Shown one piece after another: positions 4,772 through 19,901 of a DNA stretch of 64,000 bases. The stretch is from Streptomyces sp. SJL17-4 (GTDB lineage Bacteria; Actinomycetota; Actinomycetes; Streptomycetales; Streptomycetaceae). The notes under the pieces are model-generated. The model was not told the origin of the DNA. It saw only the letters and a program-made list of their open reading frames with translations, and made no database searches. The position numbers and the translations under genes are program-made. Numbering within the stretch: the first letter of the stretch is position 1; every line of letters begins with the position of its first letter. The DNA lies in contig NZ_CP104578.1 in assembly GCF_036826855.1 (NCBI RefSeq), forward strand, positions 1,922,001-1,986,000. The letters are read 5' to 3'.

Positions 4772-7183
4772 ATGCGACGGGGGTTCGGAGAACGCTTGGG
4801 GCTGCCCAGCGCACTGGGTTCCTTACCCCTCGCCCCGCTCGCACCCGAGTACGGCGAACTGATGGACCATCAGCGCACGGCCGGGTTACGTCACTTCGGA
4901 GAGGCTCTGGTCGGGGACGGCGAGACGCTGTCCTTCCTGGACGGCCTCTTCCTGTGCGCCGGGAACCGGCGGCACCACCTCAGCGCGGCCCGGCTGCGTG
5001 ACCTCGCCGACGCCCATCCGTCGCGGGGCCCCCTCCTGAGGCTCCTCGCCGACATCCAGACCCGCGACGCGGCCGTCCTCCGGCGCGTGCTGCTCCACCA
5101 GCTGATCGGGCTCCTCCAGGAGCCGGGAGCACGGCGGAAGGCCGCCGGGCTCGACCCGGCCGAGGCGGCCCTCCTCGAACAGGCCGTCCCCACCGTGCCC
5201 GTCCTCGACGCACGGCAGCGCAAGGCGGCCGAGTCGCTCGGCGGGCTCTGGCGCCGGCGCCGGTTACGGGCCGCCGCGCGGGCCCTCGACGCCCTGGGCC
5301 CCGCCGCCGTCCGCACCGACCCGGCGCTCTCGCACCTCGCCTCCCGGCTCGCCCGCCGCCTCGGCCGCTGCGACCGCTCGCTCGCCGCCGCACGCGCCAC
5401 CCGGGACACGGAGGCGGCCCGCACCCACTATCTGGACGCCCTCGGAGTGGCCGCCGACGACGACACGGCGACGCGCGGCCTGATCACGCTGGGCCGCCCC
5501 CGGCGCCCCGAGGACGCCCCGCTCACGGCCCGGCTCTCCGGCGACCGGGTCCTCCTCTCCTGGCCGGCGACCGACGGACGGAGCTGGCGCGCGGTCCGTC
5601 TCACCCGGGGCACGGACCGGCCGGCCGTCGTCCCCTCGACCGCCACGACGCCCGGGGCCAGAGGAGCCGCCGTCGACCACAGCCCCCGGCGCGGAACCCA
5701 GGTGCGGTACGCGGTGTTCCCTCTGCTCGACGGCGTCCCCGACGGGCCTCCGCTGGTCTCGGGGCCGCTCCTGATCGCTCCCGACGCCGAGGACCTCACC
5801 GTCACCGACGCGCCCGCGCGGCTCACGGTCCGCTGGACCCGTCCGCCCCGCACCGCCCGTGTGACGGTCGCCCTGCACGCCGCCGACGGCCCGGCGCGCG
5901 GCGGCCCGGCGCCCGGCGGCACGATGCCCGGCGGCACGGTGCTCGCGCGCCACGACGCGGGCGCCGACGGCGACACGCACACCTTCACCGGGCTCCGGCC
6001 CGGCTCCTACCTCGTCCGTGTCGTCTGCCACCACTCCTCTCCCGAGGGCCGGGAGGTGGAGTCCGAGGGAGTACGGGCCGCCGGTGTCGTCCACGTGTGG
6101 CCGGAGCCGCTCACCGCGCTCACCGTGACACCGGACCCCGAGGGAGGCGTCCGGTTCACCGGCCGGGGTGCGGCCGACGCCGAGGTGCGCCTCGTCGCCT
6201 GGACCGGCCCGGCGGGGGCGCCGCCCGAGGGCACCGGTCTGCGCACCGACGCCCTGCCGGCCGCGCTCCCCTGGGCCACGTACGGCACCGCGCACCCGGT
6301 GACGTCGCCCTCCGCCTTCGCGGGGCGGATCGTCGCGGTGGCCGTACTCGGGGAACGGGCCCTCGTCGGCCCGTCCGTCCTGGTCGACATCCCGGCGCCG
6401 GTGACCGGACTCCAGGGCCTGCGCGAGCACGACGGACAGGTGCGGCTCGTCTTCGACTGGCCCGCCGACGCCGGGTCGGTGGAGGTCGAGTGGGAGCAGG
6501 AAGGAGCCCGGGACCGCTCCCGGGTCAGCCGCTCCCGCTTCTTCCGGGAGGGGCTGCGGCTGCCGATCGGTCCGGCCTCCGCCCGGATCGGTGTGCGCGC
6601 CGCCTCCCGCCACGAGCCGCTCGCCGGGCCGTCCGCCGGGCCGGAGGCCGGGTCACCCGCGCCGCCCGCCGGGTCGGAGGCCGGCGCACCCTCCGTGAAC
6701 GCCCCGGACGCCGTGGACCCGACCGTCGTCGTCCGGCGTGCCCCCGCCGTGCTCGTCCTCCCCGGGGACGTCGTCGTCTCCTTCCGGCTGGTGACCCGGC
6801 GCCGGGGCCTCGCGCGCAGGGCGACGCCCGAGGCGGTCGAAGTGACGGTGAAGGGGGCGGACCTTCCCGGCTCCTCCCCCGCCGGCGCCGACCCGCCCGA
6901 CACCGCTGACCGCCCCACCCTCCCCGCTCTCCCCGCCCTCCCCGACCTCGTGCTCGTCGGCCGCGTCGGCGACGCCGCCACCGCGCGCCCCCGGCACCCC
7001 GAGGACGGTGACGTCCTCGTCCGGCTGACCGGGGCGGAGCTGGCCGCCTCGCCGCGCACGGTCCGCGAGCTGCCCGCCGGGCACCTCCGGCCGCCCTACG
7101 CCCTGCGCGCGTTCCTGGCCGGCGAGCACGCCGGCTCCGTACGCCTCGAAGAACCCGCCCTCTCGACCCTGGTGGTGCGCTGA
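4772..7183 (+). CDS. Large Fn3-like beta-sandwich protein, first gene of the GTPase island
   Basis: An 803-aa protein without signal peptide or TM segments. Residues 1-230 are alpha-helical and Leu/Arg/Ala-rich (for example RRRRLRAAARALDALGPAAV). From about 235 onward come repeated beta-strand modules with fibronectin-III-like endings such as HTFTGLRPGSYLVRVV, APARLTVRWTRPPRTARVTV and GLREHDGQVRLVFDWPADAG. Two Pro/Gly/Ala linkers with tandem variation (around 390-400 and 610-640) separate modules. It starts at ATG 4772 after GAGGGACGGGG and ends 1 nt before the GTPase gene, so it heads the operon. I do not recognise a catalytic site. A scaffold or ligand-recognition role in the GTPase system is inference. 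Confidence 0.75.
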   Translation: MRRGFGERLGLPSALGSLPLAPLAPEYGELMDHQRTAGLRHFGEALVGDGETLSFLDGLFLCAGNRRHHLSAARLRDLADAHPSRGPLLRLLADIQTRDAAVLRRVLLHQLIGLLQEPGARRKAAGLDPAEAALLEQAVPTVPVLDARQRKAAESLGGLWRRRRLRAAARALDALGPAAVRTDPALSHLASRLARRLGRCDRSLAAARATRDTEAARTHYLDALGVAADDDTATRGLITLGRPRRPEDAPLTARLSGDRVLLSWPATDGRSWRAVRLTRGTDRPAVVPSTATTPGARGAAVDHSPRRGTQVRYAVFPLLDGVPDGPPLVSGPLLIAPDAEDLTVTDAPARLTVRWTRPPRTARVTVALHAADGPARGGPAPGGTMPGGTVLARHDAGADGDTHTFTGLRPGSYLVRVVCHHSSPEGREVESEGVRAAGVVHVWPEPLTALTVTPDPEGGVRFTGRGAADAEVRLVAWTGPAGAPPEGTGLRTDALPAALPWATYGTAHPVTSPSAFAGRIVAVAVLGERALVGPSVLVDIPAPVTGLQGLREHDGQVRLVFDWPADAGSVEVEWEQEGARDRSRVSRSRFFREGLRLPIGPASARIGVRAASRHEPLAGPSAGPEAGSPAPPAGSEAGAPSVNAPDAVDPTVVVRRAPAVLVLPGDVVVSFRLVTRRRGLARRATPEAVEVTVKGADLPGSSPAGADPPDTADRPTLPALPALPDLVLVGRVGDAATARPRHPEDGDVLVRLTGAELAASPRTVRELPAGHLRPPYALRAFLAGEHAGSVRLEEPALSTLVVR

Positions 7184-7184
7184 C

Positions 7185-8438
7185 ATGACGACGGTGATCT
7201 GCCCGTACTGCTTCGACCGTTCCCAGGCCTCGCGCCTCCCGTACCGCTGTCTGATGTCCCGTACCGGCCTGCGCGGGGGCACCCCCTGCGACCCCGAACG
7301 GGACGACCTGTGGGCGAGCTTCACGGGCGCCGCGGCGCCCCCCGCCGCGTACATGAGGGGTCCGGTGTTCGCCGCCCCCGGCGGCCTCGGCAGGCTGCGC
7401 GGCGGTGGCGGCGGGCGCGCCGAGTGCCCGCGCTGCGGCGTGGCCACGCCCGTGCGGGTGTGCGCGGCCTGCCACAGCGACCTGCCCAGCGACTACTGCG
7501 CCCAGGACAGCCGGATCATCGCGCTGATCGGGGCGAAGGCGTCCGGCAAGAGCACCTATGTGTCGGTCCTCGTCAACGAGTTGAGGCACCGGGTCGGGCA
7601 GGCGTACGGGGCGGCGCTCGCCGCCATGGGCGACGAGAGCCAGAACCGTGACCGCGAGATGGCGGAGGACCTGTACGAGCGGCTGCGGCTGCCCGGCGCG
7701 ACCCGGCCCGCCGCGACCGGGTTCAACGACCCGCTGCTCTACCGCCTGAGCCTGCCGAGGCAGGGCCGCCAGGGCAGCCGGCACACGGCGCTCGTCTTCT
7801 TCGACGCGGCCGGTGAGGACCTCAAGTCGGCCGAGTCGATGACCCGCTACACCCAGTACCTGAGCGCGGCCGACGGCATCGTCCTGCTCGTCGACCCGCT
7901 GCAGCTGGGGGCGGTACGGGACGCCCTGCCCGGGAGCGGCGGGCCGCCCCTGCCCTCCCGCGAGACCCCGGCCCTGCAGATCGCCGCCGACGTCGCCACC
8001 CAGCTGCGCTCGCACCGCCGGAGCGGCTCGCGCGGCCGGGTGGACACGCCGCTCGCCGTCGCCGTCACCAAGACGGACACCCTGCGCTCGCTGGTCGACC
8101 CGCACTCCCCGCTGCTGCGCAACACCCCGCACTCCGGCGGCCGGTTCGACGAGGCCGACCGGCTCGCCGTCCACGAGGAGACCCGGTCGCTGCTGGAGGG
8201 CTGGGACTCGGGGGCGCTCTGGCGGCAGCTGGAGCGGGACTTCTCCACGGTGTCGCTCTTCGGTCTGTCCGCGCTCGGCTCCCCGCCGCCCGCCGACGCC
8301 CCCGCCGACGCGCCCAAGTCCGGTCCCCAGCCCGTCCGCGTCGAGGACCCGATCCTGTGGCTCCTCGGACGGCGCGGCCTCATCCCGGTCGCCAAGCCGC
8401 CGCGCGACGGCGGCGCCAAGGGGGAGTCCACGGCATGA
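7185..8438 (+). CDS. Zinc-finger P-loop GTPase (double-GTPase-type system, member 1)
   Basis: A 417-aa cytoplasmic protein. The N-terminus has a CPYC pair at residues 6-9, and a second cluster CPRC...CAAC...C lies at about 81-105. The P-loop domain follows: Walker A GAKASGKST (116-124), G3-like FFDAAGEDL (about 205-213) and G4-like VTKTD (294-298). The alpha/beta order and TKxD specificity motif point to a TRAFAC-type GTPase. Two such GTPases encoded with a GAP1 protein match the 'double GTPase' arrangement described computationally for actinobacterial conflict systems. It overlaps the GAP1 gene by ATGA. The trigger is unknown. Confidence 0.8.
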   Translation: MTTVICPYCFDRSQASRLPYRCLMSRTGLRGGTPCDPERDDLWASFTGAAAPPAAYMRGPVFAAPGGLGRLRGGGGGRAECPRCGVATPVRVCAACHSDLPSDYCAQDSRIIALIGAKASGKSTYVSVLVNELRHRVGQAYGAALAAMGDESQNRDREMAEDLYERLRLPGATRPAATGFNDPLLYRLSLPRQGRQGSRHTALVFFDAAGEDLKSAESMTRYTQYLSAADGIVLLVDPLQLGAVRDALPGSGGPPLPSRETPALQIAADVATQLRSHRRSGSRGRVDTPLAVAVTKTDTLRSLVDPHSPLLRNTPHSGGRFDEADRLAVHEETRSLLEGWDSGALWRQLERDFSTVSLFGLSALGSPPPADAPADAPKSGPQPVRVEDPILWLLGRRGLIPVAKPPRDGGAKGESTA

Positions 8439-11017
8439 GCCTGCCCCAGATGCACTACACGTCGGCGCCGCCCGGACCGGACGGCTCCGGCTTCCGGTTC
8501 ACCGCGGTCACCCCCGGCGTCCCGTCGTCCGTGCTCCGCGAGGCCGAGCAGCTCGTCGGGTACGAGCCGCCCCGGGACGCCCCGTCACGCCCCACGCCCT
8601 CGGAACTCGCCCTGTTCCCCGAGATGTTCAGCTACACGCGGCTCTCCGACGGCAGTGGACTGCTCAGCCGCACCGTGTACACGGGCGCCGACTACAGCGG
8701 ACGGTGGGGCAACTTCCACGCCCACGCCGTCCATCTGACGGCCGGCGACCGGCTGCCCGGCGACCTGCCGCCCATCGCCGCGTGGGGCGCCCCGCAGTGG
8801 GCGGACCACTCCCCGGAGGACGGCACCCCACCGCCGCTCGACGCCTTCACCCCGGCGCACTCGGCCGGACTCCGGGCGGAGCTCGCGGCCTTCGCCGCCG
8901 CACGGCAGCCCCGGCTCGCGGCCGTCCTTGCCGATCTGCGGCGCCTCGCCGAGTCCCCGCACGCCCCGCAGATCGTCCTGGCCGAGCAGGACACCCGGCG
9001 GGTCGCGCACTGGGTGATGCTGGTGAACGCCGCGCTGCCGCACGAGTTCGCCCGCGGCCTGACGTTCACCACGTACACCCGGCGTCCGCAGCAGGCCCGC
9101 CAGCAGATCATCGGCGTCCACCCGGAGGACGTCAGGTCCGTGGCCGGGCAGCCGCACCGGTACAGCGTGCACGACTGCTCCGATCCCTCGGCGGCCCCGC
9201 CGCCGGTGGCCGACGCCTGGGCACACACGGCGGCGGCCGTCTGGGCCGCCGACGCGTACGAGCTCATCCGGCAGGCGGCCCAGACGGACGGCGCGGAGCC
9301 GTTCGCCTCGGGACCGCTGGCCGCGCTCGCGCTGGCGCGGGGCATCCCGGCAACCGAGGACGCGCGGACCGACGCCGTCGCGTGGGTCCGCGCCCACCCC
9401 GGAGCCCTCGACGAGACGACGCTCACCCGCTTCCTCAGGGCCGTCTGCGAGGTCGGCCCCGGCGCGCCCGAACTCCCCTCGGACACCCTGGCGGACCTTC
9501 TGGGCGCGCTGTACGGACGGGTCCCCGTCGCGCTGACGGCCCCGCTCACCGCGCGGCTCGTCAGCCGGGCCGTACGGGGCGGGACGACGGCCCTGCCGCC
9601 GCTGCCTCCGGGGGCGTTGCCCGAGCCGTACCGGGGCGAACTGGCCGCCGAGTCCGGCGACGAGCTGCGCCGGACGCTCCGGGACCCGCTGACACCGCTG
9701 AGCCGGACCGTCGAACTGCTGCGGGTGGCACGGCTGCTCGGGGTGGCGCACGACGACCTGACGGCCGGTCTCGCCGAGCGGTTCCGCGACGGCCTCCTGA
9801 GCCGGCCCGGCCCCTCCACCGCCGAGGCGCTCCGGGAGACGCTCGCCGAGTCCGGCGCCCTGCGCGACGAGGTGTCCGTCCTGCTCGACTCCCGGGCCTC
9901 CGACGACCCGCCGGGCGTCGCCCGCGCCCTGCGGGACACCGGGCTTCCGGTCGACGGGCCGCCCGGGGCGCTGCCCCACCTCCGGATGTGCGCGGCGGCC
10001 CCGGCGCTCCGGCCGGAGGGCACGGCGAGCGCCGGACAAGCAGGCCAACGGGCGGCCGACGGGGCCGGGGTACGTCCTGCTGACGGGGCCGCGGTACGGG
10101 AGCGCGAGCGGCAGCAGGCGTGGGTCCGAGACCGAAACGGCGAGCTGCACAAGCTGCTCCGGATCGCCGGGGTGTCCCACCTGGAGAACCCCCTCGTGCT
10201 GCGCACGGCGTTCGCGCTGGTCTGGGACGACCGCGTACCGACGGCGGCCGAGGCGTCCCAGCTCCTGAACGAGACGGGAGCCCGGCTGCTCATCGCCGCC
10301 GAGACCTGGGACCAGGTGGTGGCCGCCGCGGTCGACGCGCCCGTCGACGACAAGGAGGCCCCGGCCCTCGCCCGGCAGCTCCTCGCGGCCGCGCCCGACG
10401 CCGTCGGGCGTTCGATCCTGGACGACCTGAGGCTGCTGTCGCTCGTCCACGACATGGAGGAGCGGAAGGGCGACGCCGACCCCGCCCAGGGAGGCTGGAC
10501 GGCCCGGGTCCGGGCCCTCGCCGGCTCCGCCCGCCCGAACGTCCGCAACCGCGCCACGGCCGCACTGGCCCGGCGGCTCATGGGCCCGGACCGGCCGGAG
10601 GGTGAACTCGGGGAGCTGGCCCGCAGCGACGACGGCGACCTCATCGACGCCTACGCCTCGGCGGCCCGTACGCCGGTCTTCCGCAACGTGCTGCGCGCGA
10701 CCCCCGGCCGTGTGGCGGACTGCTTCCTCGCCTGGACCGCCCACGCCGGGGCGAGCCCGCGATGGGACCTGACGCGCCGGGCGCTCCTCGACGAGGTGCT
10801 GCGTCCCGTCGTCCAGGACTTCACCGACGGGGAGGTCTTCTCGGTCGAGCAGGCGCTCGGGCGTCTGTCGGCGAGCCGCGCGGCCGCCTTCCAGGAGTGG
10901 AACCGGCCGTCGGGCGGTCTCGGCCGCCTCTTCCGGCGGCGCGGGCGCAAGCCGACGACGCCGACGACGCCCTGGCGGGGCGACGTCACACCGCCCGAGG
11001 GGAAGCAGGGCCGATGA
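8435..11017 (+). CDS. GTPase-associated protein 1 (GAP1)-like
   Basis: An 860-aa protein starting MSLPQMHYTSAPPGPDG, with GGGGGAG 9 nt before the ATGA overlap start. The N-terminal ~250 residues show features I associate with GAP1-N2 domains: YTSAPPGPDGSGFRFTAV, then FSYTRLSDGSGLLSRTVYTG, YSGRWGNFHAHAV and FARGLTFTTYTRRP. A long helical middle and C-terminal part follows. Such proteins are nearly always encoded beside the island's GTPases and are thought to bind or regulate them (family knowledge from comparative genomics, little biochemistry). A basic tail (GRLFRRRGRKP) ends the protein. Confidence 0.78.
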   Translation: MSLPQMHYTSAPPGPDGSGFRFTAVTPGVPSSVLREAEQLVGYEPPRDAPSRPTPSELALFPEMFSYTRLSDGSGLLSRTVYTGADYSGRWGNFHAHAVHLTAGDRLPGDLPPIAAWGAPQWADHSPEDGTPPPLDAFTPAHSAGLRAELAAFAAARQPRLAAVLADLRRLAESPHAPQIVLAEQDTRRVAHWVMLVNAALPHEFARGLTFTTYTRRPQQARQQIIGVHPEDVRSVAGQPHRYSVHDCSDPSAAPPPVADAWAHTAAAVWAADAYELIRQAAQTDGAEPFASGPLAALALARGIPATEDARTDAVAWVRAHPGALDETTLTRFLRAVCEVGPGAPELPSDTLADLLGALYGRVPVALTAPLTARLVSRAVRGGTTALPPLPPGALPEPYRGELAAESGDELRRTLRDPLTPLSRTVELLRVARLLGVAHDDLTAGLAERFRDGLLSRPGPSTAEALRETLAESGALRDEVSVLLDSRASDDPPGVARALRDTGLPVDGPPGALPHLRMCAAAPALRPEGTASAGQAGQRAADGAGVRPADGAAVRERERQQAWVRDRNGELHKLLRIAGVSHLENPLVLRTAFALVWDDRVPTAAEASQLLNETGARLLIAAETWDQVVAAAVDAPVDDKEAPALARQLLAAAPDAVGRSILDDLRLLSLVHDMEERKGDADPAQGGWTARVRALAGSARPNVRNRATAALARRLMGPDRPEGELGELARSDDGDLIDAYASAARTPVFRNVLRATPGRVADCFLAWTAHAGASPRWDLTRRALLDEVLRPVVQDFTDGEVFSVEQALGRLSASRAAAFQEWNRPSGGLGRLFRRRGRKPTTPTTPWRGDVTPPEGKQGR

Positions 11018-11118
11018 CGGCGAGACGACTGACGTCGGCAGGGCCGATGACGGCGCGAGGTACGACGGCGCGAGGACTGACGTCGGCAGGGCCGACGACG
11101 AGGAGGCGGTCGACATGA
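11014..11118 (+). CDS. 34-aa coupled micro-ORF with internal repeats
   Basis: An ATG at 11014 overlaps the stop of the GAP1-like gene (ATGA), and the stop TGA at 11116-11118 overlaps the ATG of the membrane GTPase, also as ATGA. The 34-residue product begins MTARRLTSAGPMTARG and repeats as ARGLTSAGP; it is Arg/Thr-rich with no hydrophobic segment. The DNA holds 21-bp direct repeats (11027-11047 and 11075-11095). GGGGAAGCAGGG lies just upstream and could serve as ribosome site. It may be a real small protein, or only a coupling device that carries ribosomes to the next gene. Confidence 0.45.
   Translation: MTARRLTSAGPMTARGTTARGLTSAGPTTRRRST
11027..11095 (+). repeat. 21-bp direct repeat pair, 48-bp period
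   Basis: GACTGACGTCGGCAGGGCCGA occurs at 11027-11047 and again at 11075-11095. A related GCAGGGCCGATGACGGCG block also occurs at 11005 and 11039. The repeats fill the junction between the GAP1-like and membrane-GTPase genes and encode the repeated residues of the micro-ORF. Confidence 0.85.
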
Positions 11119-12749
11119 CGGGTGCCGAACTCGCCGGGATCGCCGTCGACGTGCTCGTGGCGATCACGGGCGTGACCGCGTTCCTGGTCTGCGTGGCCTA
11201 CGCCTTCTGGGTGTTCGTCGCCACGGCCTGCCGGAGCGCGGGACGGGCCCTGGGGCCGTTCCGGGCGGGGCGGTCCGACGCGCGGGTCCTCACGATCGGC
11301 ACGGAACCCGCCCACCCCTCGTACTGGCCCCAGCAGTCGTGGATCGACGCGGCCGGCGCCGTGGGCCGCTCCTACCGCGCGCTGTGGACGCTGTGGTGGG
11401 CCCATTGGATGGTCACCGTCGCCGGGCGGCTCCTCCTGGGCCGACGGCCGGCCACGAACGCGCGGGGCGCGAACGCCTTCACCCGCCTCATCCTGCGGCT
11501 GGTGGCACCGGGCACGGCGATCGGCGCGACCGCCGCCGCGCTGCTCGCCGCCGCGCTCCACACCCTCGTCCTCGTCGTGTTCTGCGTCCTCGTCGCCGTC
11601 GTCTGGTCGTCCTGGGTCCTGACCGTCGCCGTCGTACGGGGCGTGGAGCGCGGCTCGCTGCTGCTACGCGGCGTACGGACCGTCTGCCCGCACCCCGGCT
11701 GCCACCGGCCCTTCCCCCTGGCGGCCCACCCCTGTCCGCAGTGCCGCGCGGTCCACACCTCGCTGCGGCCCGGGCGGTACGGGGTGTTCCGGCACGCCTG
11801 CCGGTGCGGTGCCCGGCTGCCCTCCTCGCTCCTCTCGGGCCGCGGCCGGACACCGGCCGAATGTCCCTCCTGCGCACGGCCGTTGCCTCCGTCGGTGGGG
11901 ACCACGCGGGTGGTCCACGTCCCTCTGATCGGCGGCTCCTCCTCCGGCAAGACGATGCTCGTGGCGGCCGTCGTGGCGGGTCTGCGTTCCTGGTCGGAGC
12001 GCGGGAACCTCACCATGGAGTTCGCCTCGGACGCCGACCAGCAGGACGGCGAGGCACTGGACCGGCAGCTCGACCGGAACGACTGGGCCAACAAGACGCA
12101 GGGCGACCAGCGGGCCTGGATGATCCTGGTGGGCAGGGGACGGCGACGGCGCCTGCTCTACCTCTACGACCCCATGGGCGAGTCACTGCAGCAGGCCGAC
12201 CGGGTACGCGAACAGCAGTACCTCGCCCACGCCGACGGCGTCCTCTTCGTCGTCGACGTGCTGGCCGACCGTACGGTACGGCGCACCCTGCACGGCGCCG
12301 ACGACACCCTCGCAGACGGGGCCCGGCCCGCCGCCCAGGGGCCCGTCGACACCTACCAGGGGCTCACCGGCGAACTCGCCGCGCTCACCGGCGGCCGCGG
12401 CGACCTCCCGGTGGCCGTGGTGGTCACCAAACGGGACGTGCTCGACCGCATCGAGGCGCTGCCCGCTCCGGGGGCCCGGGTCGACGAATGGCTCACCGCC
12501 ATCGGCCTCGGCGGGCTCGTCCGCGGCTTCACCCACGACTTCAGAGCGACGGGCTTCTGGGCGGTCAGCGCCTCCGCGGCCACCGGCACCGGCGCCCTGG
12601 ACAGCGAGCGGCGGCGGGCGGCGGAGCCGGTCCTCTGGCTGCTCGCCCGCTCGGGACTGAGGGTCGGCGCGCTGGTCGAGTCGCGGGGGCCGGTCCCCCG
12701 GCAGGGACGCCGCACCGACACCAGGAAGCAGGGGGTACGACAGGGATGA
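11115..12749 (+). CDS. Membrane-anchored zinc-ribbon GTPase (double-GTPase-type system, member 2)
   Basis: A 544-aa protein. TM1 lies at about residues 8-36 and a hydrophobic region with one or two further segments at about 133-175. Cys-rich ribbons follow between 191 and 253 (CPHPGC, CPQC, CRCG, CPSC). The P-loop domain has Walker A GGSSSGKT (273-280), G3-like YDPMGES (351-357) and G4-like VVVTKRD (435-441). GAGGAGG precedes ATG 11115. It matches the second GTPase of the double-GTPase families, the membrane one of the pair. I infer it tethers the complex to the membrane. Confidence 0.8.
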   Translation: MTGAELAGIAVDVLVAITGVTAFLVCVAYAFWVFVATACRSAGRALGPFRAGRSDARVLTIGTEPAHPSYWPQQSWIDAAGAVGRSYRALWTLWWAHWMVTVAGRLLLGRRPATNARGANAFTRLILRLVAPGTAIGATAAALLAAALHTLVLVVFCVLVAVVWSSWVLTVAVVRGVERGSLLLRGVRTVCPHPGCHRPFPLAAHPCPQCRAVHTSLRPGRYGVFRHACRCGARLPSSLLSGRGRTPAECPSCARPLPPSVGTTRVVHVPLIGGSSSGKTMLVAAVVAGLRSWSERGNLTMEFASDADQQDGEALDRQLDRNDWANKTQGDQRAWMILVGRGRRRRLLYLYDPMGESLQQADRVREQQYLAHADGVLFVVDVLADRTVRRTLHGADDTLADGARPAAQGPVDTYQGLTGELAALTGGRGDLPVAVVVTKRDVLDRIEALPAPGARVDEWLTAIGLGGLVRGFTHDFRATGFWAVSASAATGTGALDSERRRAAEPVLWLLARSGLRVGALVESRGPVPRQGRRTDTRKQGVRQG

Positions 12750-12986: not shown

Positions 12987-13679
12987 GTGACCGAGATCCC
13001 CGGCGGCCCCATGGCGAACCGCCCGGTGCACTTCATCTGGCTGCTCGACTGCTCGTACTCGATGCTCGGCGAGAAGATCGGACAGCTGAACTACGCGATC
13101 CGGGAGGCGATCCCGGAGATGCGCTCGGTGGCGCACGACAACCCCGCCGCCCAGCTGCTCCTGCGCACCATCACCTTCTCCACCACCGCCCGCTGGCACC
13201 ACAAGGACCCCGTGGCGGTGGACGACTTCACCTGGCAGGACGTGCAGCCCGACGGCACGACCAACCTGGGCGAGGCCCTGCATCTGGTGGCCGGGGAGCT
13301 GCGTACCCCGCCGATGCCCGAGCGTGCCCTCAAGCCGGTCATCGCCCTGGTCTCGGACGGCGTGCCGACGGACGACTGGCGCGCCGGGCTCAAGGCGATC
13401 GACGCCACCCCGTGGGGCCGCAAGGCGGTGCGGGTCGCCATCGCGATCGGTTCCGACGCCGACCGCAGCGTGCTCCAGGAGTTCCTGGCCAATCCGGAGC
13501 TGCGCCCGCTCGACGCGAACAGCCCCAAGCAGCTGGCCGCCGCCATCCGTTGGGCCTCGACCGCCGCGGTCAAGGCGGCCTCGCAGCCGGTGGCCGGTTC
13601 GGCCGACCCCGCCGTCAAGCCGGCTCCGTACGCGCCGCCCGTCCTCTCCGACGACGACGACGAAGACGACGTGTGGTGA
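12987..13679 (+). CDS. TerY-like vWA domain protein
   Basis: A 230-aa single vWA domain. Strand 1 is followed by the metal-ion MIDAS motif DCSYS (residues 21-25), then the Thr in PDGTTNLGEAL and the Asp of VSDGVPTDDW, so the full metal site is present. A short acidic tail (SDDDDEDDVW) ends the protein. GTG 12987 has CAGGAGG 8 nt upstream. The next two genes are a PP2C phosphatase and a kinase, giving the classic TerY-P triad described by comparative genomics as phosphorylation-linked metal/stress signalling. Here the triad follows the GTPase genes in the same direction. Confidence 0.88.
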   Translation: MTEIPGGPMANRPVHFIWLLDCSYSMLGEKIGQLNYAIREAIPEMRSVAHDNPAAQLLLRTITFSTTARWHHKDPVAVDDFTWQDVQPDGTTNLGEALHLVAGELRTPPMPERALKPVIALVSDGVPTDDWRAGLKAIDATPWGRKAVRVAIAIGSDADRSVLQEFLANPELRPLDANSPKQLAAAIRWASTAAVKAASQPVAGSADPAVKPAPYAPPVLSDDDDEDDVW

Positions 13680-14647
13680 GCAGGCCAGGGGCCTGGGAGA
13701 CCTTCCACGAGAGCGTCCGGGGCGTCAACAAGGCACGGAACCAGGACCGGTGCCTGGTCCAGGGCACCGGCACGGCCCGGGATCCGCTGATCCTCACCGT
13801 CGCGGACGGCCACGGCTCGGCCTCGTACCCCCGGAGCCACGTCGGAGCGCACTACGCGACGGACCTGTTCGCCAACCGCGCGCGCGAGTTCGCGATGTCC
13901 GTGGCCGACCGTGACCGGGCGGGCTGGCGCGGACGGCTGCGCGACTACGCCCGGATCGGGCTGCCGGAGCGGCTGGTCAGGGACTGGCAGAGCGAGGTCC
14001 TCCGTCACTGGGAGCGGAATCCCACCCCGGACGAGGACCCGAAGTCCCCCGGGCCGATCCTGCGGCTGTACGGGTCGACGCTGATCGGCGCGGTCCTCAC
14101 CCCGGACCTCTTCGTCGCCTGGCAGCTGGGCGACGGCGAGCTGACCGTGGTGGACGGCGACGGCGAGGTCCGGCTGCCGCTCGCCCCCGCCCGGGCCGAA
14201 CTCGGCGACGAGACGGCCTCGTTGTGCATGCGCAACGCGTGGCGGTCGGTCCGGGTGCACTGGGAGCCGCTGCCCGATCCGGTACGGGCTCCCCGGCTGG
14301 TGGCGCTGTCCACGGACGGCCTGTCGAAGAGCTTCGTCTCGGACGAGGGCTTCACCGAGTTCGCGGCCGGTCTGCACCGGCGGCTGGCCGAGCGGGGCGT
14401 GCCGGGCGTCGCCGAGGACATCCCCCGGTGGCTGGCCGAGGCGTCCCGGCACTCGGGCGACGACACCACCCTGGTGCTGGCCCGCCGGTCCGCCGAAGGC
14501 CCGGCCACCGACGAGGGCTCGGACGAGAGCCAGGGCGAGAGCCGGGGCGAGAGCCAGGACGAGAGCCAGGACGAGGCCGCGGAGGGCCCGGGAAGCAGCC
14601 CCGTGGACCCGCGGATCCCCTACTGCGAGGAGAGAGAACGACCATGA
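13676..14647 (+). CDS. PP2C-family serine/threonine phosphatase (TerY-P triad)
   Basis: A 323-aa protein starting at GTG 13676 in a GTGA overlap with the vWA gene. PP2C motifs are NKARNQDR (about 18-25), TVADGHGSAS (metal-binding DGHG 44-47), LGDGELTVVDG, STDGLSKSF and the final GDDTTLVLARR, so the metal-binding aspartates are present. The last ~45 residues are a low-complexity tail built from short Glu-Ser repeats (for example GESRGESQDESQDE), with matching near-repeats in DNA around 14520-14575. It is expected to reverse phosphorylation by the neighbouring kinase (family inference). Confidence 0.87.
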   Translation: MSRPGAWETFHESVRGVNKARNQDRCLVQGTGTARDPLILTVADGHGSASYPRSHVGAHYATDLFANRAREFAMSVADRDRAGWRGRLRDYARIGLPERLVRDWQSEVLRHWERNPTPDEDPKSPGPILRLYGSTLIGAVLTPDLFVAWQLGDGELTVVDGDGEVRLPLAPARAELGDETASLCMRNAWRSVRVHWEPLPDPVRAPRLVALSTDGLSKSFVSDEGFTEFAAGLHRRLAERGVPGVAEDIPRWLAEASRHSGDDTTLVLARRSAEGPATDEGSDESQGESRGESQDESQDEAAEGPGSSPVDPRIPYCEERERP

Positions 14648-15987
14648 GCGGCATGCTCGACAGCGGAGACTCACTGATCACGGACGGCGGGCAGACGATC
14701 GTCGTCGACCGGCTGCTCGGCTCGGGCGGCCAGGGCGAGGTGTACCGGGTCGGCCTGCCCGACGGCAGCGTCAAGGCCCTCAAGTGGTACTACCCGGACA
14801 GCGCGACCCCGCAGCAGCGCCGGGTCGTCGAGGACCTGGTGACCCGTGACTTCGACGACGACAGGTTCCTCTGGCCGACGGCCTTCGTCAGTGCGGGGGC
14901 CGACCGCTTCGGCTATCTGATGGACGTGCGGCCGGACCGCTTCCGCGGTCTGCCCGAGCTGTTCCGCCGGACGGTGAGCACCTCCTTCCGGGCCCTGCTG
15001 ACCGCCTGTCTGTACACGGTCGAGGCGTACCAGGCCCTGCATTCCAAGGGGATCGCCTACCGGGACATCTCCTGGGGCAACATCTTCTTCGACCCGGCCA
15101 CCGGCGAGATCCTGGTCTGCGACAACGACAACGCGGTGGTCGAGGGGGACCAGAGCGGGATCTCGGGGACCATGGGCTTCATGGCTCCCGAGCTGGTACG
15201 CGGGGACCCCGGCGCCCAGCCGGGGACCCAGAGCGACCTGCACTCGCTCTCGGTCCTGCTGTTCATGTTCCTGATGAACCACCACCCGCTCAAGGGCGCC
15301 CGCGAGCTGGCGATCCACTGTCTGGACGAGAACGCGGAGCGCAAGCTGTACGGCCGCGAGCCGCTGTTCGTCTTCGACCCGCAGTACACGGACAACCGGC
15401 CCGACCCGGTCGAGCACTCCACCGTGCTCGCCCTGTGGCCGCTGGTGCCGCCCTCCGTACAGGCGCTGTTCGTGCAGAACTTCACGGTCGGGCTGCGGGA
15501 ACCGTCGGCCCGGGTGCGGGAGTCGCAGTGGCGGGACGCGCTGCGGGCCGTCCGTGACGCCGTGGTGGAGTGCGCGAACTGCGGCCGGGAGAACATGACG
15601 GAGCCGGGCTCGGCCACTCCCGGCACCTGCTGGAAGGACGGCTGCCGCAGCGCCCTCGTCCTGCCGCCCCGCCTGGTGGTGACCACCCCGCCGCCGAGGG
15701 CGGAGCGGCACATCATGCTCGGCAGGTCCGCGCGGATCCACCGGCATCACCTGAGCCCCGAGCCCTCGCGGCACGACTACTCGGAGGAGAGCCTGGTGGC
15801 CGAGCTCGTGGAGCATCCGCAGAAGCCGGGGCGCTACGGTCTGGCCAACCGGTCCGCCACGGCCTGGACGGGCACCCGTTCCGACGGCACCACCCAGCAG
15901 GTCGTGCCCGGCCAGACGGTGCCGCTGCGGTCCGGGCTCGCCCTCGAACTGGACGGCGGCGCCAAGGCGGAGGTACGCGCCCGCTGA
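14644..15987 (+). CDS. Atypical protein kinase with C-terminal zinc ribbon (TerY-P triad)
   Basis: A 447-aa protein whose ATG lies in an ATGA overlap with the PP2C gene. The kinase core has a glycine loop GSGGQGEVY (26-34), a Lys in VKALKWY, the catalytic loop YRDISWGN (139-146) and a metal-binding motif CDNDN where canonical kinases have DFG (D160-N-D162). A zinc ribbon CANC...CWKDGC follows at about 309-334, and a beta-rich C-terminus (about 375-447) resembles a small sandwich or FHA-like region. This architecture matches kinases of TerY-P triads. Probable substrates are the vWA protein or the GTPases (inference). Confidence 0.85.
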   Translation: MSGMLDSGDSLITDGGQTIVVDRLLGSGGQGEVYRVGLPDGSVKALKWYYPDSATPQQRRVVEDLVTRDFDDDRFLWPTAFVSAGADRFGYLMDVRPDRFRGLPELFRRTVSTSFRALLTACLYTVEAYQALHSKGIAYRDISWGNIFFDPATGEILVCDNDNAVVEGDQSGISGTMGFMAPELVRGDPGAQPGTQSDLHSLSVLLFMFLMNHHPLKGARELAIHCLDENAERKLYGREPLFVFDPQYTDNRPDPVEHSTVLALWPLVPPSVQALFVQNFTVGLREPSARVRESQWRDALRAVRDAVVECANCGRENMTEPGSATPGTCWKDGCRSALVLPPRLVVTTPPPRAERHIMLGRSARIHRHHLSPEPSRHDYSEESLVAELVEHPQKPGRYGLANRSATAWTGTRSDGTTQQVVPGQTVPLRSGLALELDGGAKAEVRAR

Positions 15988-16017: not shown

Positions 16018-16347
16018 TCACATGCCGACGATGCCGGCGATCCCCTGGACCAGGGCGAGACCGCCGCTCCCGACGGTCACGTACGGTTCGATGGCGGTGA
16101 ACGCGGACCGGATGCGGCTCCGGTCGGCGGGGCGCCCCTCGCGCTCGGCGGTCACGAGTTCGCCGTGCACCGCCTCGGCCTGCTCGACGGCGGTTCGGGC
16201 CGCCTCCTCGTCGCGGAGCCACTGGACGAGGCGGGCCGCCATCGCCACGGCGCTCGCCGCGTCCGTCCCGTACTGGTGGATCTCCACCCGGCCGTGGTCC
16301 CCGATGTTGCTCCCGGACACCTGGCCGTGGAAGTTGTACGTGTTCAT
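16018..16347 (-). CDS. 109-aa protein with N-terminal GSNIG motif (amyloid-signalling-like)
   Basis: The N-terminus (residues 3-27) reads TYNFHGQVSGSNIGDHGRV followed by EIHQYG, closely matching the C-terminal end of the protein encoded just upstream. A helical central region follows (about 30-75: SAVAMAARLVQWLRDEEAA), and a Gly-rich hydrophobic end (GSGGLALVQGIAGIVGM) that could insert into membrane. Layout of short Gly/Asn motif plus helical, amphipathic tail resembles bacterial amyloid-motif effectors (Bell-type), but I cannot prove membership. It is 14 nt downstream of the 498-aa gene and convergent with the kinase gene (30 nt gap). Confidence 0.7.
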   Translation of the reverse strand: MNTYNFHGQVSGSNIGDHGRVEIHQYGTDAASAVAMAARLVQWLRDEEAARTAVEQAEAVHGELVTAEREGRPADRSRIRSAFTAIEPYVTVGSGGLALVQGIAGIVGM

Positions 16348-16361
16348 GGGTTTCCTCTCGC

Positions 16362-17858
16362 TCAGGGGGTGGCGGTGCCGTGCTGGGCCGGCGCGCCCTG
16401 CTGTCCGCCCGGTCCGTGCTGGTTGACGACGCCGTGGTTGCCGACGTTGCTGCCGTGGATGTCGCCCGAGATGTTGTACGTCTGGGTGCTGATCACCTGC
16501 ACCGCCTGGTCGTACGAGCTGGTGTCCACCCGGTGGTCCTTGAGGAACCGTTCGGTCGCGGTGAGGACGCCGCTCTGGAGCCGGTGCAGGTAGTCCCGGG
16601 AGTCGGCGCGGTCGTTGTGGAGCATCTGGTCCCAGGAGGAGACGCTCTCCCGGATGCTTCCGGTCGCCCCGTGGTCGAAGACGAGCTGCCGCTCGGAGAT
16701 CTCCCTGCGCCAGTTCCTGAGTTCACGGGCCCTGGCCCGGGCGTGGCTCCGCCGCCCGGAGTTGCGTCCCCAGGCTCCCCGCAGGCCGGGCAACCAGGCG
16801 CGCCGGGTGGCGGAGAGCAGCTTCCAGGTCCGCTCGAAGCCGCGGAACGGCAGGGAGCCCACGATGTTGTAGACGGCGTCGTCCACGGGCGGGATGACGA
16901 GGACCAGCACCTCCCAGGAGAGGCTGGGGTGGTGCAGCCGGGCCCGCAGCTGCATGGTCACGATGACCCGGCCGCCGTCGCTGACGCGCTCCAGGCTGAG
17001 GAAGGTCCGCATCCCGGCCCCGGGGGTGAGCAGTCCGGTCCGTACGAGGTCGGCGTCGATCTGGGCGCGGGGGCGGCCCTGCGGTTCCTCCAGGAGCTCG
17101 TCGGCGAGGAGCGGGACGTGGTCGCCGCACACGTAGAGCCGGTTGCGGGCGCGGAGTCCTTCGAGGCCCGCGATCTTCGCCATCTCCTTGGCGACGTAGG
17201 TGTGCAGGTCCACGGCGTCGAAGGGGACGATGGTCAGCTTGCGTCCCGGATTGGCGGGGTCCTCGGCGGGCCGCGAGACGTCGATGGGCTGCCAGACGAC
17301 GTCCTTGATCTTCGTGCCGCTGCCGACGAAGGGGTGAGTGCGGGCGGCGGCGGCCGTGTACGGCACCACGTTGGCCTTGGCGAGTGCCCGGAGCCGGTCC
17401 TCGGCCGCCCGCTCGACGGGCTCGGCGAGGGTCTCGGGGCGTTCGGTGCCCCAGTACACCTCCTGAGCCGCGCTCCAGGCCCCCGACAGGGCGGCGTGGA
17501 CGGCCCACCAGGCTCCGGCGAGGGCGCCGAGCACGATCCCGCCGCCCGCCCAGGGGCCGAGGGCGTTGCCGCTCACGAAGCCCCAGACCAGGACGGCGAG
17601 GCCCGCCCAGAGGGCGAGGAAGAGGCGGGAGAGGAAGCGGTCACGCCGCTCATGGCGGCGCACCGCCGCCCGCGCGTGGCGGGCGAGGGCGATCAGGTGG
17701 ATCCCGAGGGGAAGTCCGAGTGCCGTCATCCGGTCCGCGGTGAGCTCGGTGTCCACCTCGCGGGCGAATCGCTCGTCGAGGTGGACGTGCGCGCACAGCT
17801 GCCGGGTCACCGCGTCCTTGCGGTAGGTCGGAAGCGTCGGTAACTGTCTGCGTGCCAT
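16362..17858 (-). CDS. 498-aa two-TM protein ending in GSNVG motif
   Basis: Start at ATG 17858 is supported by AGGGGGAG upstream. A short cytoplasmic part is followed by a TM hairpin (about residues 76-97 and 103-124), then a ~330-residue cytoplasmic domain. That domain has the conserved-looking FVGSGTKIKDVVWQPIDVS, LTIVPFDAVDLHTYVAKEM, YVCGDHVPLLADELL and a basic region around 375-395. The last 45 residues hold TYNISGDIHGSNVGNHGVV (460-478) and a Gln/Gly/His-rich tail. I recognise no enzyme family. Its motif partner lies in the next gene, so the pair probably act together. Confidence 0.75.
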   Translation of the reverse strand: MARRQLPTLPTYRKDAVTRQLCAHVHLDERFAREVDTELTADRMTALGLPLGIHLIALARHARAAVRRHERRDRFLSRLFLALWAGLAVLVWGFVSGNALGPWAGGGIVLGALAGAWWAVHAALSGAWSAAQEVYWGTERPETLAEPVERAAEDRLRALAKANVVPYTAAAARTHPFVGSGTKIKDVVWQPIDVSRPAEDPANPGRKLTIVPFDAVDLHTYVAKEMAKIAGLEGLRARNRLYVCGDHVPLLADELLEEPQGRPRAQIDADLVRTGLLTPGAGMRTFLSLERVSDGGRVIVTMQLRARLHHPSLSWEVLVLVIPPVDDAVYNIVGSLPFRGFERTWKLLSATRRAWLPGLRGAWGRNSGRRSHARARARELRNWRREISERQLVFDHGATGSIRESVSSWDQMLHNDRADSRDYLHRLQSGVLTATERFLKDHRVDTSSYDQAVQVISTQTYNISGDIHGSNVGNHGVVNQHGPGGQQGAPAQHGTATP

Positions 17859-17932: not shown

Positions 17933-18340
17933 TCAGCTCGGTTCGGTCTCCAGCCGCAGCGAGATCGAGTTGATGCAGTACCGCTGGTCCGTCGGGGTGG
18001 GGTAGCCCTCGCCCTCGAAGACATGTCCCAGGTGCGAGCCGCAGCGGGAGCAGCGGACCTCGGTGCGGAGCATGCCGTGGGAGCGGTCCTCGATCAGCTC
18101 GACGGCGGAGCTGTCCTTCGGGTCGAAGAAGGACGGCCAGCCGCAGTGCGACTCGAACTTCTCGTTCGAGGTGAACAGCTCCGCGCCACAGGCCCGGCAG
18201 GAGTACACGCCCTGGGTGGTGGTGTCCGTGTACTCACCCCGGAAGGCGGGCTCGGTGCCCGCCTGGCGCAGCACCTGGTACTCCGCCGGGGTCAGCTCCG
18301 CACGCCATTGCTCGTCCGGCTTCTCGACGTCGTACGCCAT
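17933..18340 (-). CDS. msrB: Peptide-methionine (R)-S-oxide reductase MsrB
   Basis: A 135-aa full-length MsrB that repairs R-methionine sulfoxide in proteins in the cytoplasm. It has two zinc-binding pairs (YSCRACGAE and VRCSRCGSH), the signature ESHCGWPSFFDP, GHVFEGEG, and the catalytic cysteine in RYCINSISLR near the C-terminus. The first segment KPDEQWRAELTPAEYQVLR is typical of the family. It lies 47 nt downstream of murC on the same strand in the minus direction of the neighbour, and its product is independent of cell-wall synthesis; this neighbourhood is conserved in Streptomyces as I recall. Confidence 0.95.
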   Translation of the reverse strand: MAYDVEKPDEQWRAELTPAEYQVLRQAGTEPAFRGEYTDTTTQGVYSCRACGAELFTSNEKFESHCGWPSFFDPKDSSAVELIEDRSHGMLRTEVRCSRCGSHLGHVFEGEGYPTPTDQRYCINSISLRLETEPS

Positions 18341-18387
18341 GAGCTCGCTCCCTCTGCTGCTTCGACCGGCTCCGCTCTCGGCCGGTA

Positions 18388-19788
18388 CTACTTCGACAGG
18401 TGGTCCAGGTGGTCCAGGATCAGCGGGCCGAGGTCCGTGACGTCGCCCGCGCCCATGGTGAGAACGAGATCGCCGGGGCCGGCCATTCCCGCCACGACCA
18501 GCGGCACCGTCGTCTTGTCGTGGACGGGCATGACGTCGGCGCCCGCCTGCCGCGCGGCGGCGATGATCAGCTCGCTGGTGATGCCCGGGATCGGGTCCTC
18601 GCGGGCCGGGTAGATGTCGAGGACGACGGACGCGTCGGCGAGGGCCAGCGCGTCGCCCATCTCCTTGCCCAGCTCCTGGGTGCGGGAGAAGAGGTGCGGC
18701 TGGAAGACGACCAGGAGGCGGGAGGCCCCGGCGGCGCCGCGCATGGCCTCCAGGTCGGCGGTCATCTCGGTGGGGTGGTGCGCGTACGAGTCGATGACCT
18801 GGACGCCCTTCGCCTCGCCCTTGAGCTGGAGGCGGCGGCCGACGCCGGTGTACGCGGTGAGCGCCTGGGCGAGCTCGGCCGGGTCGATGCCGACGCGGGC
18901 GCCGGCGGCGAGGGCCGCGGCGGCGTTGTGCGCGTAGTGGCGGCCGGGTACGGAGACGGTGAAGGTGTGCTCGACGCCGTCGAGCGCGACCGTCACCTCG
19001 CTCTTCATCCCGTTCGGGACGATCTTCAGGATGCGGGCGTCGGAGCCCTCGGACTCACCGACCGTGACGATGTTCAGACCGTCGCGGTCCGCGACCCGGC
19101 GGGCCAGCTCGCGCGCGCCCGCGTGCTCGCCGACGACCAGGGTGCCGCCGGGGCGGATCTTGGCCGTGAAGGCCTCGAAGGACTCGTAGATCTCGTCCAT
19201 GGAGGCGTAGTTCGCGTGGTGGTCCAGCTCGACGTTGAGGACGATCGCGACCTCGGGGTCGTACTTCTGGAAGCTGCGGTCGCTCTCGTCGGCCTCGGCG
19301 ACGAAGACCTCGCCCTCGCCGTGCAGCGCGTTGGTGCCGGGGCCCGCGAGGTCGCCGCCGATGGCGTACGAGGGGTCGAGACCGAGCTCGGTGAGGGCGA
19401 CGGCCAGCATGGAGGTGGTCGTCGTCTTGCCGTGCGTACCGGCGACGGCGATCGCGCGCAGGCCGTCCATGAGGGAGGCGAGCGCGTCGGAGCGGTGGAC
19501 GACGGGGATGCCGAGCTCGGCGGCGCGCGCCAGCTCGGGGTTGTCGGCGCGGATGGCGCTGGAGACGACGACGGCGGAGGCGTCGTCGGCGAGGTGCTCG
19601 GTGGCGTGCCCGATGTGGACGGTGGCGCCGAGGGCGCGCAGCGACTGGGCGGTCGCGGACTCCTTGGCGTCACTGCCGGCGACCTTGGCGCCGCGCTGGG
19701 CGAGGATCTTCGCGATGCCCGACATTCCGGCACCGCCGATGCCGATGAAGTGCGGCCGTTCCATGGCGGCAGGGATGGCGGGTGCCAT
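18388..19788 (-). CDS. murC: UDP-N-acetylmuramate--L-alanine ligase MurC
   Basis: A 466-aa Mur ligase that adds L-Ala to UDP-MurNAc in peptidoglycan precursor synthesis. It shows the N-terminal UMP-binding Rossmann loop GIGGAGMSGIAKIL, the ATP P-loop GTHGKTTTTSML, EADESDRSF, LNVELDHHANY and the late VIDSYAHHPTEM and FQPHLFSRT blocks, so it is full length. ATG 19788 is supported by GGGGAGAG 10 nt upstream. It is separated from other cell-wall genes, as is usual for murC in Streptomyces. A terminator hairpin lies just upstream, belonging to the preceding gene. Confidence 0.96.
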   Translation of the reverse strand: MAPAIPAAMERPHFIGIGGAGMSGIAKILAQRGAKVAGSDAKESATAQSLRALGATVHIGHATEHLADDASAVVVSSAIRADNPELARAAELGIPVVHRSDALASLMDGLRAIAVAGTHGKTTTTSMLAVALTELGLDPSYAIGGDLAGPGTNALHGEGEVFVAEADESDRSFQKYDPEVAIVLNVELDHHANYASMDEIYESFEAFTAKIRPGGTLVVGEHAGARELARRVADRDGLNIVTVGESEGSDARILKIVPNGMKSEVTVALDGVEHTFTVSVPGRHYAHNAAAALAAGARVGIDPAELAQALTAYTGVGRRLQLKGEAKGVQVIDSYAHHPTEMTADLEAMRGAAGASRLLVVFQPHLFSRTQELGKEMGDALALADASVVLDIYPAREDPIPGITSELIIAAARQAGADVMPVHDKTTVPLVVAGMAGPGDLVLTMGAGDVTDLGPLILDHLDHLSK

Positions 19789-19873
19789 GCGGATCTCTCC
19801 CCGGGGTGCGTCGTGCGTGGAAGACCCCAGCCTAGTGGCTCCCGCCGGGTGGGCCCGGCGGGAGCCGGGCCGT

Positions 19874-19901
19874 GTCCGCGCCCCCTGCACGGGGCGCGGA
19901 C
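19874..19901 (-). terminator. GC-rich hairpin after the 19939-20421 gene
   Basis: An 11-bp perfect stem GTCCGCGCCCC / GGGGCGCGGAC with a 6-nt loop lies between the end of the gene at 19939 and the start of murC. No U-run, as is normal for high-GC hairpin terminators. Confidence 0.55.

Follow-up and report, generated by a model that had tools for sequence, protein, structure and literature searches.

We describe a family of actinobacterial membrane proteins whose C-terminal tails carry short motifs that recur at the N-terminus of the protein encoded adjacently downstream, with the motif pairs co-evolving across many lineages. We hold it to be fairly probable that in this large family a membrane receptor activates a separate soluble effector with the same motif by amyloid-like templating, and that this applies equally to the pair encoded in the window, i.e. 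the entire 64,000-nucleotide stretch of Streptomyces sp. SJL17-4 DNA that was analysed. More broadly, we lean towards the view that these proteins would constitute an undescribed actinobacterial receptor family for NLR-free prion-like amyloid signalling, with many matched motif classes, exchangeable effectors and one branch wired into a GAP1-N2 GTPase/kinase system.

A motif-matched gene pair in the window

The pair comprises a 498-aa two-transmembrane (2TM) protein and a 109-aa protein encoded on the same strand, with 14 nt separating the stop of the former ORF from the ATG of the latter (Table 1). The original prediction that these adjacent proteins share a Gly/Asn motif at opposite ends was confirmed at the residues given in the table: TYNISGDIHGSNVGNHGVV and TYNFHGQVSGSNIGDHGRV are identical at 11 of 19 positions, and the pattern proposed for them, TYNxxGx[IV]xGSN[IV]G[DN]HGxV, fits both. 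The best local alignment between the two proteins scores 72, which none of 5000 shuffles of the small protein reached (mean 33, maximum 68; Gumbel p about 2.5e-5). A motif profile (A5) built from 19 typed motif peptides, both window copies among them, recovered the two window genes from the whole 8.54-Mb genome at E=3e-14 and 2e-10; its one further match has E=4.6, and thus this search found no third copy. The restriction of the profile to two genes indicates that the motif is no widespread turn in its own genome, an outcome that the prediction had itself named as refuting it. At E<=10, none of nine motif peptides had a Pfam match, which is a weak test given the HMMER filters. Directly upstream of the pair (17933-19890) lie msrB and a murC-type gene, and these neighbours are retained at L033, L035, L037, L038, L073 and L075, pointing to a stable chromosomal site in those six loci.

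Table 1. Coordinates (nucleotides of the window) of the motif-matched pair and of the convergent gene cluster
Feature	Coordinates	Strand	Evidence
498-aa two-TM protein, proposed receptor/hub, motif at C-terminal end	16362..17858	-	ORF list and AF2
TM hairpin, helices 55-96 and 100-136	17451..17696	-	AF2 secondary structure; hydrophobicity
Mixed alpha/beta soluble domain and long helices, residues 150-457	16488..17411	-	
C-terminal motif TYNISGDIHGSNVGNHGVV, residues 460-478 of the 498-aa protein	16425..16481	-	
109-aa partner, proposed effector	16018..16347	-	
N-terminal motif TYNFHGQVSGSNIGDHGRV, residues 3-21 of the 109-aa protein	16285..16341	-	
Four-helix bundle of the 109-aa protein, residues 30-107	16027..16260	-	AF2
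Ser/Thr protein kinase, convergent with the pair	14644..15987	+	Pkinase 4.9e-15
PP2C phosphatase, start codon uncertain	13670..14647	+	PP2C_2 9.5e-34
Stand-alone vWA protein	12987..13679	+	VWA 4.1e-5
Double-GTPase 2	11115..12749	+	DO-GTPase2 1.7e-12
GAP1-N2/M/C protein, start codon uncertain	8357..11017	+	GAP1-C 1.2e-108, GAP1-N2 2.2e-45, GAP1-M 1.8e-20

In both window proteins the motif is predicted to be disordered and the body to be folded. The AF2 model of the 498-aa protein (mean pLDDT 88) is ordered up to about residue 457, with pLDDT<50 over residues 466-498; that of the 109-aa protein has pLDDT<50 over residues 1-20 and block means of 86-98 from residue 31 onward. The long helical hairpin of the larger protein (residues 55-136) holds its hydrophobic stretch, the first such stretch peaking at residues 79-97, and the positively charged RRHERRDR preceding the first TM segment suggests that both termini, and hence the motif, are cytosolic. 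A Bell/HeLo-like effector domain would be a small helical bundle with a hydrophobic helix that enters the membrane. The four-helix bundle of the small protein may act on the membrane; its last helix is just weakly hydrophobic (the top 19-aa window, residues 90-108, has a Kyte-Doolittle mean of 1.56), so that membrane attack by this protein stays a guess.

PDB fold searches with both models returned no reliable relative for either protein. The 498-aa protein has no PADLOC or NCBIfam match at E<=0.01 and none to a Pfam model above its cut-off; SLATT_fungal was recovered below cut-off (E=0.036) over a soluble helix at residues 362-400. The assignment of this protein as a SLATT 2TM pore former is not supported, as no SLATT profile matched over the 2TM region. 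The 109-aa protein by itself has no match to DUF5955 at E<=0.1. By hhalign, the profile of its class scored 90% against the DUF5955-type partners described below and 91%, 30% and 7.5% against those of classes B, C and F, respectively, with shuffled controls reaching 0.3% at most. In PADLOC, the small protein also shows a weak PglZ match (0.0026), and weak matches to the end of the PDC-M14B models are seen both for it (16018-16347, E 0.006) and for a distant partner (L133:2508-2894, E 0.003).

Co-variation of the two motifs within class A

Matches to the 498-aa protein at E<=1e-40 are found in 34 of 392 genomes of the genus. Class A, as defined here, consists of 33 loci (the window, L033-L052 and L073-L084), and tblastn places the small gene after the TM gene in 32 of them, window included. 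The exception is L051, where the TM gene (14477-15961) has an intact motif and a matched partner was not found within the 19-kb locus; it has either been lost or is encoded elsewhere. The spacing is tight elsewhere, but at L042 an ORF resembling an inositol monophosphatase by eye (about 5347-6169) separates the small gene from the convergent kinase.

The motif itself is variable: besides the GSN[IV]G form of the window, class A has GPSNFG, GNAFG, AG[IV]IGDNGT[IV]N, GSVSGGQNQFG and others, and the two sides vary together. For instance, L035 has TYNFNGIVQGNAFGSQN with TFNFNGPVSGNAFGNDN, while at L048 YNIGSVSGGQNQFG is found identically on the TM side and the partner side. Across 21 non-redundant class A pairs, the true partner scores 63.9 vs 42.2 for other partners; this within-pair excess of 21.75 score units compares with 0.03 +/- 0.83 (maximum 2.13) in 200 control segments of the same proteins. 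With both core distances removed, a partial Mantel test on these pairs gives r=0.68 at the permutation floor of p=2e-4. The own partner ranks first for 12/21 TM tails and 10/21 partners, indicating that tree neighbours are frequently about as good a match. Hence, the co-variation between the two genes that the original prediction had expected across genomes is borne out in class A, as it is by the matching of 78 of 82 pairs at p<1e-3 in the wider family (see below).

It could be argued that the similarity of the two copies stems purely from recent duplication or gene conversion of adjacent genes, with no functional coupling. Identical codons at identical matched residues are indeed in significant excess over 83 loci (66.4% vs 61.2% expected, z 4.4), and some sequence exchange between the two copies is thereby possible. 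However, the excess is small, and side-specific residues persist within class A, with [IF]SG on the TM side in 16/32 and FHG on the partner side in 17/32; moreover, mutually unrelated motif classes are each matched inside their own pair. Copied DNA alone thus appears insufficient, judging from these sequence patterns, to account for the matching, and we regard this explanation as highly improbable.

Matched pairs with unrelated motifs in the wider TM family

Distant relatives of the TM protein are frequent: with the FHA-bearing TM protein of L053 as query, matches at E<=1e-12 were obtained in 81 of 246 genomes of the genus, a count that includes class A. We examined 11 such distant loci (L053-L063) and then 40 more (L118-L157), and found TM tails that match the N-termini of the adjoining downstream partners with very different motifs: NNTGLYAGGDVTVTGSAVGV with NNSGIQAGGDIRIDGSAVAV, IIASHGSRVDSSAVASG with IIATGGSNVVGSAVASG, DNRIRFGNISGSGNRVGH with DNSIRFRNISGNGNHVGH, GDDKRVYVRDNHGALYAHSKH with GDDKRTYVKDNHGTLYAHSKH and STNNFGGNQSVGNNGTQTFG with STNNFGGNQSTGNNGTQTFG. 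In a shuffle test of 82 adjacent pairs (32 of class A, 10 of L053-L063 and the 40 of L118-L157), 78 pairs match at p<1e-3, 80 at p<0.01 and 81 at p<0.05, the 40 later loci having been taken among L053 homology matches, so that this is not a random survey. The four pairs not below 1e-3 are L044 (2.7e-3), L083 (0.041), L145 (0.056) and L155 (1.2e-3); the L145 start used in this test was too short, and its upstream extension gives p=1.7e-6. In addition, five pairs that were either new or corrected match at p<=4.1e-4; four of these, L054 among them, do not belong to the 82.

For class A and L053-L063 the partner was the downstream ORF, with its motif-bearing start picked by eye (the motif starts of L035 and L073 being reset by hand), while third-codon GC served as the automatic criterion for selecting the ORF at L118-L157, the choice at L148 being replaced by hand. 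The set of 82 leaves out L051, which is without a partner, L002 (a repeat of L033), the G001 and G102 loci, G675, G095 and L054. A matched partner was not found at G095, as at L051, and none was seen on contig C158 of G675, the C154 copy of which lies about 400 nt from the contig end.

The motifs were sorted by hand into 16 classes, and one pair of each was compared all-against-all. In 14/16 rows and 14/16 columns the highest score falls to the own partner, ties being counted in its favour, with mean scores of 77 vs 30. The TM cores of these representatives are 23-54% identical, bar one value of 12 (A vs J). Classes D and E illustrate the pattern well: their TM cores are 47% identical, their motifs are unrelated, and each matches its own partner. 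The matched segments are rich in Gly, Asn, Ile and Val and low in charge (G 19.5%, N 14.2%, D+E+K+R 8.7%, P 2.1%).

Certain partners (L151:2390-2905, L154:2971-3546 and L155:2375-2893) have two apparent copies of the matched motif, and their genes have a 4- to 20-nt overlap with the TM gene. HET-s likewise carries two motif copies (PMC8086366), and these partners recall its repeat arrangement.

The family extends beyond the genus, where genomes were sampled thinly. Among 118 genomes of the class, the window TM protein has matches at E<=1e-5 in 4, including one that does not belong to the genus; among 198 genomes of the phylum, the L160 protein has matches at E<=1e-6 in 7, including two from other genera. 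At G527 (L162), a genome more remote within the phylum, the downstream partner again has a matched motif.

Family scans of the 498-aa protein and its relatives recovered no NLR family. The profile scan of TM relatives (A1) located FHA in one member, placed in L053 by alignment, and gave weak DUF6350, DUF7577 and zinc-ribbon matches, the ribbons being N-terminal in some relatives. When TM relatives were scanned singly (PADLOC, NCBIfam, Pfam), L118 alone had matches, each of which lies in its additional FHA domain. An N-terminal FHA domain is present in the TM proteins of classes D and E (L053:3096-4976; L118:2923-4941).

Exchange of the partner body

While the motif stays matched, the body of the partner is exchanged between a small helical bundle, a TIR domain, a PNP_UDP phosphorylase and EAD1. 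Among ten partners scanned, CAP12-PCTIR_TIR was detected at L140 and L153 and PNP_UDP_1 at L149 and L156; L133 and L139 passed the cut-off for DUF5955, L118 and L147 fell below it, and the partners at L151 and L154 had no domain match. Sorting of 83 partners by shared sequence gives seven that are TIR-like and three that are phosphorylase-like. At L160 (G408), which comes from a different family of the class, EAD1 is detected in the partner at 1e-13. TIR, PNP and helical partners bear the matched motif at the N-terminus.

In PADLOC, a TIR-type partner (L143:2279-3016) matches the candidate models PDC-S35, and a phosphorylase-type partner (L149:3095-4009) matches 'Effector' (PN-superfamily) and PDC-M60C; hence, some components of the family may already have been marked as candidates for defence in isolation from the TM receptor.

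Since several partners are effector-type (TIR, PNP_UDP) and the TM protein is constant, this architecture suggests that the downstream protein is likely the effector and the TM protein the receptor, activator or hub. The direction in the original prediction, with the TM protein activating the 109-aa effector, accordingly gains likely support from the TIR and PNP_UDP partners of its relatives. We consider it quite unlikely that the roles are reversed, with the 2TM protein being a membrane-damaging effector and the soluble partner a nucleating sensor or adaptor. Such a reversal would fit the C-terminal position of the motif in BASS effectors, as in the TM protein (PMC7889193), the weak SLATT_fungal match (E=0.036) and an EAD1 partner that could be an adaptor; however, TIR and PNP_UDP partners are effector-type enzymes, the TM protein is the family's constant part, and the below-cut-off SLATT match falls on the soluble helix 362-400 rather than on the TM hairpin.

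Linkage to a GAP1-N2 conflict system

The gene cluster that converges on the window pair combines DO-GTPase and GAP1-N2/M/C proteins with a linked kinase, PP2C phosphatase and stand-alone vWA protein, the composition of the kinase theme of the GAP1-N2 GTPase-centric conflict systems (Kaur 2020, PMC7159879). The section of that work on this theme has no mention of the TM/small pair. All five convergent genes and their layout are kept in 29/33 class A loci, window included, and are missing or partial at L051, L052, L083 and L084. The cluster is nevertheless dispensable for the TM family: by tblastn, L053-L063 are without its five genes, save for one 25% vWA match at L054. The convergent genes probably control when the receptor clusters, and the pair would then represent NLR-free immune signalling of the amyloid type. 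A kinase and a phosphatase convergent with the pair in class A, together with the FHA domain in some TM relatives, suggest that phosphorylation may regulate the input of the TM receptor.

Proposed mechanism

We propose that the receptor, with its 2TM hairpin, alpha/beta cytosolic domain and disordered C-terminal motif, would upon clustering allow its disordered tails to convert to a shared beta (amyloid-like) assembly. This assembly would template the matching N-terminal motif of the effector, and the effectors thus crowded together would act; in the window, the effector would be the predicted four-helix bundle, possibly acting on the membrane.

The matched motifs could instead form a discrete stoichiometric clasp, i.e. 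a two-chain beta-arch or short beta-solenoid that tethers the partner at the membrane and signals by release or rearrangement, with no self-propagating amyloid. Such a clasp, which we deem rather unlikely, would be in keeping with the close pairing of the overlapping or tightly spaced genes, and the disorder of the motif in single chains fits folding upon binding equally well as amyloid. However, the two sides match by similarity and without visible complementarity, which favours in-register homotypic stacking, and the partners at L151 and L154, at least, have two motif copies, as does HET-s (PMC8086366). We favour the templated beta assembly because matching by similarity, low charge, richness in Gly, Asn, Ile and Val, disorder, gene adjacency and effector identity resemble those of amyloid motifs; such traits are described for amyloid signalling motifs (PMC7889193, PMC9815663, PMC12261475), and TIR and PNP_UDP effectors are among their known partners (PMC7889193, PMC9815663).

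Relationship to known systems

The BASS 1-10 motifs occur in NLR/Bell gene pairs, including in actinobacteria (PMC7889193, PMC8086366, PMC9815663, PMC12261475). As in these pairs, a short motif is common to the products of adjacent genes, co-varying in the TM family; small helical-bundle effectors are typical and TIR effectors are also found, again in actinobacteria. In contrast to them, the NLR is replaced by a 2TM protein without a known family, and the ends are reversed: BASS motifs are at the NLR N-terminus and the Bell C-terminus, whereas here they are at the TM C-terminus and the effector N-terminus, assuming that the partner is the effector. The original comparison with amyloid-signalling partners of this type therefore stands for the co-varying short motif in adjacent genes and fails for the NLR and for the placement of the motif. 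With no NLR, the window pair is no standard BASS pair; the TM/partner pair would work like one and by definition is not one. The original prediction is largely upheld, with kinship of the motif itself to BASS or RHIM being conjectural.

The fungal amyloid NLR signalosomes (HET-s, sigma, PP, PUASM; PMC9815663) also have adjacent-gene motif pairs and PNP_UDP effectors but differ from the TM family, which is without an NLR, has other motifs and involves a bacterial membrane protein. The window also resembles the GAP1-N2 conflict systems (PMC7159879) in having DO-GTPase2, GAP1-N2, kinase, PP2C and vWA genes. The EADs, adaptor domains of GAP1-N2-type conflict systems, occur as matched copies, one on a core component and another on the effector next to it (PMC7159879), comparable to the motif copies here, and the L160 partner itself has EAD1. 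However, the EADs are described there as domains, whereas the present element is a motif some 20-30 residues long, for which disorder is predicted in the window pair.

A literature search, with preprints and most subscription journals outside its scope, yielded among the matches listed no paper on the pair or the TM family, judging by title and start of abstract, and no mention of DUF5955; the family is nameless. The new element is the proposed NLR-free membrane receptor.

Implications

A 2021 review (PMC7889193) raises the question whether signalling amyloids exist in fungi and bacteria beyond the NLR pathways, and observes that past searches were biased towards NLR architectures. If our reading is true, the NLR-free TM family answers this question for bacteria, and it offers a direct, testable candidate for a non-NLR signalling amyloid. 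It supplies dozens of natural matched motif pairs on one receptor scaffold, opening specificity, cross-seeding barriers and effector exchange to side-by-side study. Further, it provides a proposed function for DUF5955-type proteins and for a TM family without a Pfam, NCBIfam or PADLOC family of its own in our scans, and the kinase theme of the GAP1-N2 conflict systems gains a putative output arm.
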